Below are positions 22,136-59,663 of a stretch of DNA of 64,000 nt, piece after piece. Origin of the DNA: Streptomyces sp. MZ04 (lineage in GTDB: Bacteria; Actinomycetota; Actinomycetes; Streptomycetales; Streptomycetaceae). Numbering within the stretch: position 1 is the stretch's first letter; each line of letters starts with the position of its first letter. Location of the stretch: the NCBI RefSeq assembly GCF_004684775.1, contig NZ_SRIC01000001.1, positions 62,001 through 126,000 of the forward strand, in the 5' to 3' direction. The notes beneath the pieces are model-generated. The model searched no databases, was not told where the DNA came from, and worked only from the letters and a program-made list of their open reading frames with translations. The position numbers and the translations under genes are program-made.

Positions 22136-22300
22136 CAGGTCATGAGTGACAGCGATTAGGCCCCGGCTCGCTGTCCGGCAACCCTCCGTCCGTGGCGGGG
22201 TGCCCCGGGTGAAGACCAGGTCGTACGCAGCAAGGCGTATGGCAAGCGCGGACCCCTGCGCACTCGATGAGTGTCGCATCCCTGGGGTCCTGGTCCTCAA
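22136..22300 (+). promoter_or_regulatory. SAM-IV-type S-adenosylmethionine riboswitch
   Basis: The stretch GGTCATGAGTGACAGCG (22138-22154), then CCGGCAACCCTCC and GGGGTGCCCCGGGTGAAGACC to 22217, follows the layout I know for the actinobacterial SAM-IV aptamer, including the S-box-like CCGGCAACC core. Downstream, GACCAGG (22214-22220) can pair with CCTGGTC (22289-22295), while GGACCCC (22250-22256) can pair with GGGGTCC (22284-22290). These two helices compete for 22289-22290 and could be the expression platform. It precedes a PLP enzyme, so methionine or sulfur control is expected. Confidence 0.85.
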
Positions 22301-27465: not shown

Positions 27466-28497
27466 GTGGCGTCCCACCGTCGACCCAAGCAGCCGAGCCG
27501 CACCCGCGTGACCGTGCTCACCGCGACCGCCGCCGCTGCCGTGGCGCTCACCTCGCAGGCCGCCAACGCATCGCCGAGCGAGAAGCCGAGCAAGGACGAG
27601 GTCAAGTCCAAGGTCGACAAGCTCTACGAGGACGCGGGCCGGGCCACCGACCGGTTCAACGGCGCCAAGGAGAAGCAGGAGAAGCTCGAGAAGGAGATCG
27701 GCGAGCTTCAGGACAAGGTCGCGCGCGGCCAGGGGGACCTCAACGACCTGCGCAGCGGCCTCGGTTCGATGGCCAGCGCGCAGTACCGCTCCGGCGGCAT
27801 CGACCCCTCCGTCCAGCTCTTCCTCTCGGCCGACCCGGACGACTACCTCGACAAAGCGTCCACCATGGACCAGTTGAGCAGTCAGCAGGTCGAGGCGCTC
27901 CAGAAGGTCCAGGACAAGCAGCGGACCCTCGCGCAGGAGCGCAAGGAGGCTTCCGACAAGCTCAAGGACCTCGCCGACACGCGCAAGGAACTGGGCAAGA
28001 AGAAGAAGGAAGTCCAGAGCAAGCTCGGCGCAGCCCAGAAGCTGCTCAACACCCTGACCGCCGAGGAGAAGGCGGAGCTCGCCGCCAAGGAGCAGCGCGC
28101 CAGCCGCGACGCCGGCGACCGCGTGGACCTCGGCAAGGAGGTCCCGGCCTCGCAGCGCGGCCAGGCCGCCCTGAGCGCCGCCGCGACCCAGCTCGGCAAG
28201 CCGTACGTCTCCGGCGGCAGCGGCCCCAACTCCTACGACTGCTCCGGCCTCACGCAGTGGGCGTACAACCAGGCCGGTGTGCAGATCACCCGCACCACCT
28301 ACACCCAGCAGAACGACGGCACGAAGATCGGCCGGGGTGAGCTGAAGCCCGGCGACCTGGTGTTCTTCAACAGCCTCGCGCACGTCGGCTTCTACGCGGG
28401 CAACGGCCAGGTGCTCCACGCCCCGAAGCCGGGCGCCGTGGTGCGCTACGAGTCGATGTCGACCATCGGGTCCTTCCAGTTCGGCGTCCGCATCTGA
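27466..28497 (+). CDS. secreted NlpC/P60 peptidoglycan hydrolase (RipA-like)
   Basis: A 343-residue exported endopeptidase that cuts peptidoglycan stem peptides. The signal peptide ends near SQAANA (about residue 36). A charged coiled coil of about 180 residues follows, as in mycobacterial RipA. The C-terminal NlpC/P60 domain has Cys259 (YDCSGLTQWAY), His306 (HVGFYAGNGQ) and His318 (LHAPKPG). The start is GTG 27466. The next gene is a clear paralogue with the same length and layout. Confidence 0.95.
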   Translation: MASHRRPKQPSRTRVTVLTATAAAAVALTSQAANASPSEKPSKDEVKSKVDKLYEDAGRATDRFNGAKEKQEKLEKEIGELQDKVARGQGDLNDLRSGLGSMASAQYRSGGIDPSVQLFLSADPDDYLDKASTMDQLSSQQVEALQKVQDKQRTLAQERKEASDKLKDLADTRKELGKKKKEVQSKLGAAQKLLNTLTAEEKAELAAKEQRASRDAGDRVDLGKEVPASQRGQAALSAAATQLGKPYVSGGSGPNSYDCSGLTQWAYNQAGVQITRTTYTQQNDGTKIGRGELKPGDLVFFNSLAHVGFYAGNGQVLHAPKPGAVVRYESMSTIGSFQFGVRI

Positions 28498-28587
28498 TTT
28501 CCGGTCGGATTCCCGTCCGGCGGTCCGCATCTGAAACGACCGGCATGCCGCCCGAACGGGCGAATTCCGCCAACTACCGCTGACTCA

Positions 28588-28623
28588 ACGCCCCGTCCTC
28601 GACCTGCGTCGATGGCGGGGCGT
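28588..28623 (+). terminator. terminator after the first NlpC/P60 gene
   Basis: ACGCCCCG (28588-28595) and CGGGGCGT (28616-28623) form an outer stem with an inner TCGAC/GTCGA helix, closing a compact hairpin 90 bp after the stop codon. Confidence 0.7.
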
Positions 28624-28689
28624 CCGGCTGTGCACAGGCGATCCGCGTCGCGCTGCGTGATAGCTTGCGCGCTGTCCGTCAGCCCCGGC

Positions 28690-28855
28690 CGACGGATCTA
28701 CCGCCGGACGGGCGGGAAGTGACGCCTGTGGAGGCTCGCGTAAGACCGGAACACAGCGTCCGGCAGGGGCCCGTGAAGCAGGAACCCGCCGGAAGCCGGT
28801 CCGCGACGCGGGTCGGCAGGCCGGAGCCTCGGCCGCCGTGCCGGGGAGGACGTCA
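28690..28855 (+). mobile_element. decayed IS200/IS605-type right end with possible omega-RNA remnant
   Basis: The frame reads GREVTPVEA and then GPVKQEPAG (GTGAAGCAGGAACC at 28772-28785), the tail pattern I know from actinobacterial TnpB proteins. It is followed by a 7-bp stem CCTCGGC (28826-28832) / GCCGGGG (28839-28845) and the end sequence GGGGAGGACGTCAA. That order, tnpB tail, subterminal hairpin, then TCAA cleavage end, is the right end of an IS200/IS605 element, where omega-RNA is encoded. No transposase body remains. It now lies in the leader of an NlpC/P60 gene. Confidence 0.55.
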
Positions 28856-28913
28856 ATGTCGCGCGCATTCCCCGACCGTCGGGGGCGTCAGCGGAAGAGG
28901 AGAGCGGCTTCCC

Positions 28914-29951
28914 TTGGGATCCCATCGTCGTCCCGCAGATTCCGGACCCGACCGGGGTGCGCGTGGCACCCGCGTCACCGTTCTTTCCGTCGCGGCGGCC
29001 ACCGCTGCCGCCGCCCTCGGCGCCGCACCGGCGGGCGCCGCGCCGCAGGACACTCCGTCCGACACCAAGGCCAAGGTGGACCGCCTCTACGAGCAGGCCG
29101 AGCAGGTCACCGAGTCGTACAACAAGGCCGACGAGCGCGCGGACAAGCTGCGCGAGCAGGTCCGAATCGCCAAGGACAGCGTCGCCCGCGGCCAGGAGCG
29201 CATCAACACGATGCGCGGCGCGCTGGGCGCGCTCGCCGGGGCCCAGTACCGCTCCGGCGGCATCGACCCCTCGCTCGCCCTGCTGCTCTCCTCCGACCCG
29301 GACGGCTATCTGGACAAGGCGGCGGCGCTCGACCGCATCGGCGCCCGGCAGGCCGATGAGCTGACCGATCTGCACAAGGCCCAGCGCGCCCTGGCCCAGG
29401 AGCGCACGGAGGCGACCCGCAAACTCGCCGAGCTCGAGGAGAGCCGCAAGGCCGTGGCCCGCCACAAGCGCACCGTCGAGCACAAGCTCGCCAAGGCGCG
29501 GCGGCTGCTCAACTCGCTGCCGTCCGACGAACGCGACGCGTACGACAGGGCGTCGCGCTCGGGCCGCGGTGAGCTGCCCGACCTCGGCGCCGCGGTGCCC
29601 GCGTCGGCGCGGGCCGCGGCCGCCACGGCCGCCGCACGCTCGGCGGTCGGCCGCCCCTACGTGTGGGGGGCCAACGGTCCCTCCGGCTTCGACTGTTCGG
29701 GCCTCACGCAGTGGTCGTACGCACAGGCGGGCGTCGGCCTGCCGCGCACCTCGCAGGCGCAGCGGTACGCAGGGCGGCAGGTGCCGCTCGCGCAGGCGCA
29801 GCCCGGCGACCTCGTGGCCTACCGCGATGACGCGAGCCACATCGGGATGTACATGGGCAACGGCCAGGTCGTGCACGCGCCCTACCCCGGCGCGGCCGTG
29901 CGCTACGACCCGGTGGGCATGATGCCGGTGTCGTCCGTGACGCGGATCTGA
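28914..29951 (+). CDS. secreted NlpC/P60 peptidoglycan hydrolase, paralogue
   Basis: A 345-residue paralogue of the preceding gene with the same plan: signal peptide (cleavage near GAAPAGAA), coiled coil, and a C-terminal NlpC/P60 domain with Cys261 (FDCSGLTQWSY) and His residues in HIGMYMGNGQ and VVHAPYPG. I choose TTG 28914 because it gives LGSHRRP, matching VASHRRP at the start of the paralogue, and has AGAGGAGA ten bases before it. The longer open frame upstream runs through the IS200/IS605-type remnant. Confidence 0.93.
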   Translation: MGSHRRPADSGPDRGARGTRVTVLSVAAATAAAALGAAPAGAAPQDTPSDTKAKVDRLYEQAEQVTESYNKADERADKLREQVRIAKDSVARGQERINTMRGALGALAGAQYRSGGIDPSLALLLSSDPDGYLDKAAALDRIGARQADELTDLHKAQRALAQERTEATRKLAELEESRKAVARHKRTVEHKLAKARRLLNSLPSDERDAYDRASRSGRGELPDLGAAVPASARAAAATAAARSAVGRPYVWGANGPSGFDCSGLTQWSYAQAGVGLPRTSQAQRYAGRQVPLAQAQPGDLVAYRDDASHIGMYMGNGQVVHAPYPGAAVRYDPVGMMPVSSVTRI

Positions 29952-58235: not shown

Positions 58236-59422
58236 GCGGGCTGCTCCAGGAAGGGCTGTGCCGAGGGGGCCGGTGCGAACCGGCGGGGAGTGAACGCCCT
58301 TGCCTCGTCCGGCAGTTCACCGGTGACCAGGGCGTGCGCCATGACGTCGCCGGTGACGGGCGTCAGGAGTACGCCGTTGCGGTAGTGGCCGGTGGCCAGC
58401 TGGAGGCCGGGCAGGGCGGTGGGGCCGAGCATCGGCGCGTTGTCGGGGGAGCCGGGGCGCAGACCCGCGCGGGTCTCGGTCAGCGGCAGCTCCGTGATGC
58501 CCGGTACGAGCTCGTGGGCGTCCCGAAGCAGCTCGTACACGCCGCCCGCGGTGACCGTCGTGTCCCAGCCGAGCTCCTCGCTGGTCGCGCCGACCACGAG
58601 CTCGCCGTTCTCGCGCGGCACCAGGTAGACATGGCTGCCCCGGACCACGGCGCGCACCGTGCGGCTCAGGAACGGCGCGTGGCGCTCGGGCACCGTAAGC
58701 CGCAGCACTTGCCCCTTGACCGGGCGAACGGGCGGCAGAACCCCCTCAGGGACCCCTGTGAGGCGCCCGCTGAGGCTGCCCGCGGCGAGCACGGTCCGGT
58801 CGGCCTCCAGGGCGGTGCCGTCGGCGAGGACGACGCCGGTGGCCCGGTCGCGTACGACCGTCAGTCGCTCCGCCCACGCCCGGTGGAGGACCACGCCCGC
58901 CCGCTCGCACGCCACCAGGAGCGCCGCGGCGAGCCTGCGCGGGTCGACCTGGTGGTCGCCGTCCACGCGGAGCCCGCCGCGCACGCCCGGCGCGAGCATC
59001 GGTTCGAGACGGCGGCACTCGCGCCCGCTCAGCCACTCCGAATCGAGCCCCGACTGGCGCTGCAGGGTGTGCAGTTCGCGCAGATGGGCGCGGTCGTCGG
59101 CGTCGAGCGCGACGGCGAGCGTGCCGCACGCGCGGTAGCCGAGACCGCGGCCGCTCGCCTCCGTCAGCTCCTCCGCGAACTCCGGATAACGCTTCGCGGA
59201 GGCCAGATTCAGGCCGAGCAGCGTCTGCTCGCCGTAGTGCAGCTCGGTGACCGCGGCCAGCATGCCCGCGGCGACCTGCGCGGCGCCGCCGCCCGGCTCG
59301 GGGTCCACGACCGCCACGGACAGGCCGCGCTGCGCCGCCCGCCAGGCCGTGACCAGGCCGATGATGCCGCCCCCGACGACGAGGACGTCCGTCGTCGCGT
59401 GGGGTGGTGTACGTGAATGCAT
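58232..59422 (-). CDS. thiO: glycine oxidase
   Basis: A 396-residue FAD enzyme oxidising glycine to the imine needed by ThiG. The N-terminal dinucleotide motif is VLVVGGGIIGLVTAWRAAQRG. The substrate/FAD-end motifs are TRAGLRPGSPDNAPMLG and GHYRNGVLLTP. The frame is open to 59542, through the riboswitch, but ATG 59422 gives the normal N-terminus. First gene after the TPP riboswitch. Confidence 0.95.
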   Translation of the reverse strand: MHSRTPPHATTDVLVVGGGIIGLVTAWRAAQRGLSVAVVDPEPGGGAAQVAAGMLAAVTELHYGEQTLLGLNLASAKRYPEFAEELTEASGRGLGYRACGTLAVALDADDRAHLRELHTLQRQSGLDSEWLSGRECRRLEPMLAPGVRGGLRVDGDHQVDPRRLAAALLVACERAGVVLHRAWAERLTVVRDRATGVVLADGTALEADRTVLAAGSLSGRLTGVPEGVLPPVRPVKGQVLRLTVPERHAPFLSRTVRAVVRGSHVYLVPRENGELVVGATSEELGWDTTVTAGGVYELLRDAHELVPGITELPLTETRAGLRPGSPDNAPMLGPTALPGLQLATGHYRNGVLLTPVTGDVMAHALVTGELPDEARAFTPRRFAPAPSAQPFLEQPA

Positions 59423-59433
59423 GGGTGTCCAGC

Positions 59434-59530
59434 CCCTCCCTTCGCCGGCATGACCCGGATCAGGTTCGTACGGTCGGAGGCCGTTCAGCCTCCCTCTCAG
59501 CCCGGTGCGTCCGGGCTCCCGCGAGTGCTC
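59434..59530 (-). promoter_or_regulatory. TPP riboswitch
   Basis: On the minus strand the order is GCGGGAGCCCGG, CACCGGGCTGAGAGGGAGGC, GACCGTACGAACCTGATCCG and GGTCATGCCGGCGAAGGGAG. These are the THI-box elements CUGAGA and ACCUGAUCYGG with GYUAAUACC-like GGTCATGCCGGC. The 3' end GGGAGGGG acts as the ribosome site for thiO, so thiamine pyrophosphate probably blocks translation. It controls thiO-thiS-thiG. Confidence 0.97.
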
Positions 59531-59663
59531 TGCACCGGCCACCCTAGCCCGTCGTGTCCGGAGGCAGTAGGGGGAGCTGTCCGGGTATGGGCGATGACGG
59601 TGTGTCAGAGATCTCCTCGTCGCGCCCTGAAGTCGGCGTCCTGTGCCGCCCTACAGTGATCGG

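Follow-up and report, generated by a model that had tools for sequence, protein, structure and literature searches.

TnpB guide RNAs are familiar as components of transposons; that the protein can be re-used is shown by TldR, a protein akin to TnpB. According to one report, the reRNA corresponds in sequence to the tnpB 3' end together with the right end of the element, its last ~16 nt are derived from the flank, and the TAM equals the target motif (Karvelis 2021, PMC8612924). Another presents TldR and its guide RNA as RNA-guided parts turned to gene regulation (PMC13418256). The PATEs of Haloquadratum walsbyi are transposase-free elements with near-terminal palindromes, some of which are derived from IS605-type elements by deletion of the core (PMC3119063).

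The site described here lies in the 9.1-Mb genome of Streptomyces sp. MZ04, within the window (the whole stretch of 64,000 nucleotides that was analysed), where two NlpC/P60 genes stand in tandem around it; this family name was taken from the translations and the original prediction rather than from a family search. We consider it somewhat probable that a TnpB-less mini-element of IS200/IS605 type, now truncated on its left, landed in the promoter of the gene for a secreted NlpC/P60 hydrolase, a cell-wall enzyme, and has since been kept, its promoter and fold now forming a structured leader. Comparison of the alleles establishes the origin of the element, its insertion site, the retention of its fold and the invariance of TGATAGCTT, and the keeping of an RNA shape at the start of a gene suggests that the element now helps to run the hydrolase gene. 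The features are listed below.

Features of the element site and its neighbours (positions in the window)
Feature	Position	Strand	Remarks
NlpC/P60 gene 1	27466..28497	+	Upstream of the site; orthologue upstream of the site also in the loci compared
Terminator-like hairpin of gene 1	28590..28625	+	Read by eye; loop ends TCGATG
Extended -10-like TGATAGCTT	28658..28666	+	Hexamer 28661-28666; apparent left edge of the remaining element; putative promoter
Stem 0 hairpin	28674..28697	+	Near the presumed transcript start; corresponds to mini-element GTCCGACAAC gga GTTGTCGGAC
Omega-RNA-like core	28698..28856	+	TnpB-tail-derived sequence and right end
Closing helix CCTG/CAGG	28725-28728 with 28779-28782	+	100% of cells paired; one-sided variation in 2 of 4 pairs
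Stem I	28746-28752 / 28757-28763	+	93% paired; two-sided change at 2 pairs
Stem II	28795-28804 / 28808-28817	+	93% paired; two-sided change at 2 pairs
Stem III, right-end hairpin	28827-28833 / 28840-28846	+	86% paired; two-sided change at 4 pairs; outer 6 pairs counted
Candidate guide-supplying flank, then leader hairpin	28857..28898	+	In relatives, the sequence to the right of the empty site
Leader hairpin 3' of element	28870-28875 / 28879-28884	+	Predicted fold
NlpC/P60 gene 2	28914..29951	+	TTG start at 28914; SD-like GGAG upstream

The core is homologous to the omega-RNA part (TnpB 3' end plus right end) of IS200/IS605 TnpB elements. The TnpB-like tail frame noticed in the original prediction (TPVEA/VKQEP) is present, and the window frame, ...REVTPVEARVRPEHSVRQGPVKQEPAGS..., resembles genuine TnpB C-termini, those of Nocardia and Pseudonocardia ending ...AAGRAESSTPVELVSVSTPVERPAVKQEPAGSAA and ...GPVKQEPAGSAG. 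The predicted 7-bp subterminal hairpin was also found (stem III, CCTCGGC cgccgt GCCGGGG, with one G-T pair), shortly before the right end GGGGAGGACGTCAA, which is likewise present but has 28856, and not 28855, as its last base. On the left, the remnant reaches beyond the 28690 given at first, to TGATAGCTT.

A covariance model, R1, was built from nine site alleles (the window and eight orthologues). Of 84 sources it matched 79, among them 23 that carry the label of tnpB-type ends, with the site alleles topping the score ranking partly because nine of them made the model. Since R1 also matches real tnpB 3' ends, the identification of an IS605-type right end with its omega-RNA region holds, and a conserved scaffold fold goes with the homology. 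All five misses were TNB-domain loci of the window's own genome; the sixth such locus (L034) matched at 48.7 bits. Among 392 same-genus genomes, 138 were matched at E<=1e-4, and a search of the own genome with 28500-28930 returned one other stretch, on contig C193 (76% over ~90 bp, E 2e-9); both results exceed what chance would give. The site element shares with autonomous IS200/IS605 elements a precise right junction and a short target motif on its left, the motif being read by eye. As the original prediction held, there is no transposase or nuclease body at the site: neither a tnpA nor a tnpB ORF was found there, and a search of the entire genome of the window gave no Y1 transposase. A riboswitch or another leader family of Rfam was rejected, as 28400-29000 has no match to any Rfam family at E<=1. 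Elsewhere in the window, a SAM-IV riboswitch (22138-22254, + strand, 113.8 bits) and a TPP riboswitch (59420-59532, - strand, 63.9 bits) were detected.

When 61 genomes were searched with 28500-28930, matches to the flanks could be told apart from matches to the element. Sixteen aligned same-genus alleles are without the element and have GGCTACTGTCTGCC or a near variant of it, resembling a -10 box with the leader after it, and the empty junction, GGCTAC-TGTC, is the apparent -10 box of gene 2. In most filled alleles the element ends in GTCAA or nearly so and is followed by the TGTC of the site (GTCAA-TGTC), the junction having drifted in two lineage-A subclades, those of S. mesophilus and B-S-A12. 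The proposed location in the leader of an NlpC/P60 gene is borne out, and it can be refined in that the insertion struck the hydrolase promoter itself. Gene 2 begins with TTG in the window and with GTG in the 31 other alleles printed.

The element at 28690-28855 is real, but it is no orphan as had been supposed: it belongs to a family of mini-elements, and the same site is filled, in the same orientation, in 12 of the Streptomyces sampled. Nine of these alleles belong to lineage A and three do not; S. antnestii, S. mesophilus and S. indicus are among the filled species. A DNA search of the 392 same-genus genomes gave at least 7 filled alleles (G000, G185, G229, G313, G007, G121 and G394), a lower bound because not every weak match was assigned to a locus. 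Scanning genome contigs with a pattern yielded 11 stretches, eight in Streptomyces, all at the site (three of them repeating G185, G313 and G229, as judged by sequence matches), and three tnpB ends; tnpB-end matches fall in named loci of Nocardia (L080, L083) and Pseudonocardia (L088). Because the pattern demanded a 23-nt motif, the conservation of this motif is partly ascertained; the blocks CTACCGCCGGAC[G/T]GGCGG and CTG[T/C]GGAGG were not part of the pattern. With many empty sites in the genus, the leader is not essential.

The family consists of ~280-bp TnpB-less mini-elements scattered through Streptomyces, of which the site element is a member without the left end; the left-end hairpin of the mini-elements was not seen in any of the 12 site alleles. 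Copies were classed as mini where no TnpB was found within ~1.5 kb on either side. Most of 26 printed copies, read by eye, have the layout GCTAC, left end CGAACACTTGCCCAGTGCTCCACCCTTCAGGGTGGAG, palindrome GTCCGACAAC gga GTTGTCGGAC, core and ...GAGGACGTCAA, and in our reading of them GCTAC would be the target motif. Seven R1 matches each were found in G268 and G394, and six in G226. Like PATEs, these elements lack a transposase gene, occur in many dispersed copies (44 among the 79 rows of the element tree) and have ends derived from the IS605 type. A Y1 transposase was found in 11 of 13 other genomes searched and in neither G007 nor G304; these two and G000 have TNB-domain genes. The stretch on C193 of the window's genome is another such TnpB-less copy (L002, G000:C193:2696-2847) and scored 98 bits to R1. 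A second captured-looking copy, known from two genomes (L139, G185:C12:365021, and L058, G332:C1:6993735; 94% alike), lies between lipB and a regulator gene, both named from reading translations. Its order is TGATARCTTC, scaffold, short flank and strong GC hairpin, resembling a stand-alone RNA gene, and relatives have an empty CTAC-ATTC site or variants at this locus.

In the element tree (79 rows: 12 site, 44 mini and 23 tnpB-type, the last made up of 18 found by tblastn, L034 itself, three recognized by translated tails and L155 by eye), the nine lineage-A site alleles, the window included, form one clade (support 99/92), and all 44 mini-elements and 23 tnpB ends fall outside it. The G007+G121 and G394 alleles nest among the mini-elements. 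Since lineage A, G007+G121 and G394 are separate in this tree, the site was hit at least three times in the same orientation; descent of all 12 filled alleles from one ancestral insertion is rejected. In the gene tree (32 rows, 391 columns) the filled genomes do not group together, the sister of the window being the empty G304, so that alleles have been moved, lost or gained and the element may postdate the gene splits. Simple vertical descent of lineage A is unsupported by the gene tree. Between the window and G304, identity in the flanking genes is 0.84-0.99 per 100-bp bin, mostly >=0.92, and it is 0.71-0.72 between the two genes and over the initial 100 bp of gene 2. The drop spans 28560-29010, inside otherwise highly identical flanks, and from this local drop it is likely that short allele tracts were exchanged between the window and G304, its closest sampled relative. 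The TCGATG variant of the terminator loop, which lies outside the element and is common to 7 of the 9 lineage-A alleles and to none of the printed empty alleles, fits an exchange of short tracts.

Repeated insertion at one site, the nesting of the G007/G121 and G394 alleles among mobile copies and the patchy occurrence are what would be expected if the promoter were merely a hot spot, its GCTAC repeatedly hit by mini-elements that then decay as neutral fossils, with similarity coming from recent or repeated insertion out of a mobile pool and structure selected only during mobility. We regard this as a possible but rather unlikely account, since the nine lineage-A alleles form one clade without a mobile copy and the Streptomyces matches of the lineage-A pattern lie at this site in 8 of 8 cases. 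Conservation bears on it in both directions, as follows.

Applied to alignment A2 (12 rows), RNAalifold did not recover stems II and III, in our view because lineage A is not correctly aligned with lineage B there; the structure was drawn by eye and counted on lineage A alone. In alignment A3, whose nine lineage-A rows are those from which the structure was drawn, 94.3% of 300 cells pair. Two-sided changes occur in eight pairs (17 cells, against a shuffled mean of 6.5, with 0 of 500 shuffles reaching 17), a contrast that relatedness alone can produce. With partners slid by 1-3 columns, pairing fell to 27-51% (at most 51.4%), although drawing the structure from the same sequences favours the unslid version. 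These two-sided changes in the stems agree with the retained structured RNA that had been predicted and, having been counted inside lineage A alone, argue against the neutral-fossil account, as does the identity of TGATAGCTT in 9 of 9 lineage-A alleles. The stem 0 hairpin is predicted in all 12 site alleles despite differing sequence. Scaffold folding-energy z values range from -0.4 to -2.8 and are below -2 in 3 of 12 alleles, so that predicted energy alone is not decisive.

Identity was compared over 21 between-subclade pairs of 8 of the 9 lineage-A alleles, VRA16 being omitted because its gene 2 is cut. The core reached 0.755 without gaps (0.712 with gaps), the neighbouring noncoding sequence 0.587 (0.462) upstream and 0.555 (0.504) downstream, and third codon positions 0.623 in gene 2 and 0.725 in gene 1. 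Since the last value is near the core level, constraint is visible as blocks and stems and not as overall identity, and the near match of the silent sites of gene 1 is a point in favour of neutral decay. When lineage A is compared with lineage B, the core (0.679) is less conserved than the third positions of gene 1 (0.718).

On the preferred reading, that of a captured element serving as an mRNA leader, a mini-element would have inserted at the apparent -10 box of the hydrolase gene and lost its left end. Transcription would start just after TGATAGCTT, near 28674, and ~240 nt (about 241 by window position) with an omega-RNA-like fold would constitute the leader at the 5' end of the hydrolase mRNA. 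Once folded, this leader may act in cis, either on how stable the mRNA is or on how accessible the SD is, and TnpB encoded elsewhere may still bind the leader RNA. If this is true, the RNA part alone has been captured and kept as a gene leader. The alleles of this one promoter, filled in some Streptomyces and empty in others, are a ready natural comparison set.

It seems improbable that this leader doubles as a guide RNA, being processed to a working omega-RNA for a TnpB made elsewhere, with the guide TGTCGCGCGCATTCC directing cleavage of the empty promoter allele beside GCTAC (GCTAC plus TGTC...) so that the filled allele is driven between strains or kept. Were it so, a homing guide RNA without its own nuclease would be housed in a host 5' UTR. 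Several observations are compatible with this: i) tnpB-type genes (PF07282) occur in 12 of 12 genomes searched, the number of matches per genome being 1 to 39, as well as in the genome of the window itself, ii) GGCTAC directly precedes the guide-like flank in the empty alleles, and iii) the window and G304 appear to have exchanged alleles locally. However, ordinary recombination suffices for such an exchange, only one of the six tnpB-type loci of the own genome matches the model, and the guide region varies among the lineage-A subclades. The original prediction took the bases after the element as the guide, a claim that so far finds no support: in most predicted folds these bases pair in the downstream leader hairpin, and the flank after 28856 was inherited from the old empty site. 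Very unlikely, finally, is a contribution of the element limited to a new promoter, the remainder being passive leader, which would suit an insertion at the apparent -10 box and the invariance of TGATAGCTT but not the stems up to 180 nt further on, which keep pairing via two-sided changes.

The site also leads to a wider family in Streptomyces, that of mini-elements which lack TnpB but bear an omega-RNA-like region; among the open-access titles searched, none on such elements and none on an omega-RNA-like leader in Streptomyces was found. Compared with the omega-RNA/reRNA of TnpB, the same part of the element is concerned, and a single covariance model recovers tnpB ends as well as the site element; unlike the omega-RNA of IS200/IS605 TnpB elements, however, the site element has no tnpB in cis, has its own -10-like promoter and lies in the leader of a host gene. 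Structured 5' leaders and riboswitches likewise have a conserved RNA fold upstream of the SD, whereas the site element has no Rfam match and is of transposon origin. The mini-elements resemble PATEs in being transposase-free, in their near-terminal palindrome and in their IS605-type descent (PMC3119063); they differ from those of Haloquadratum walsbyi in occurring in Streptomyces, in keeping an omega-RNA-like core and in that one lineage is fixed in a gene leader. In the TldR system the effector is a protein with a guide RNA (PMC13418256), whereas at the present site the RNA itself would be the leader, with no protein gene linked to it.
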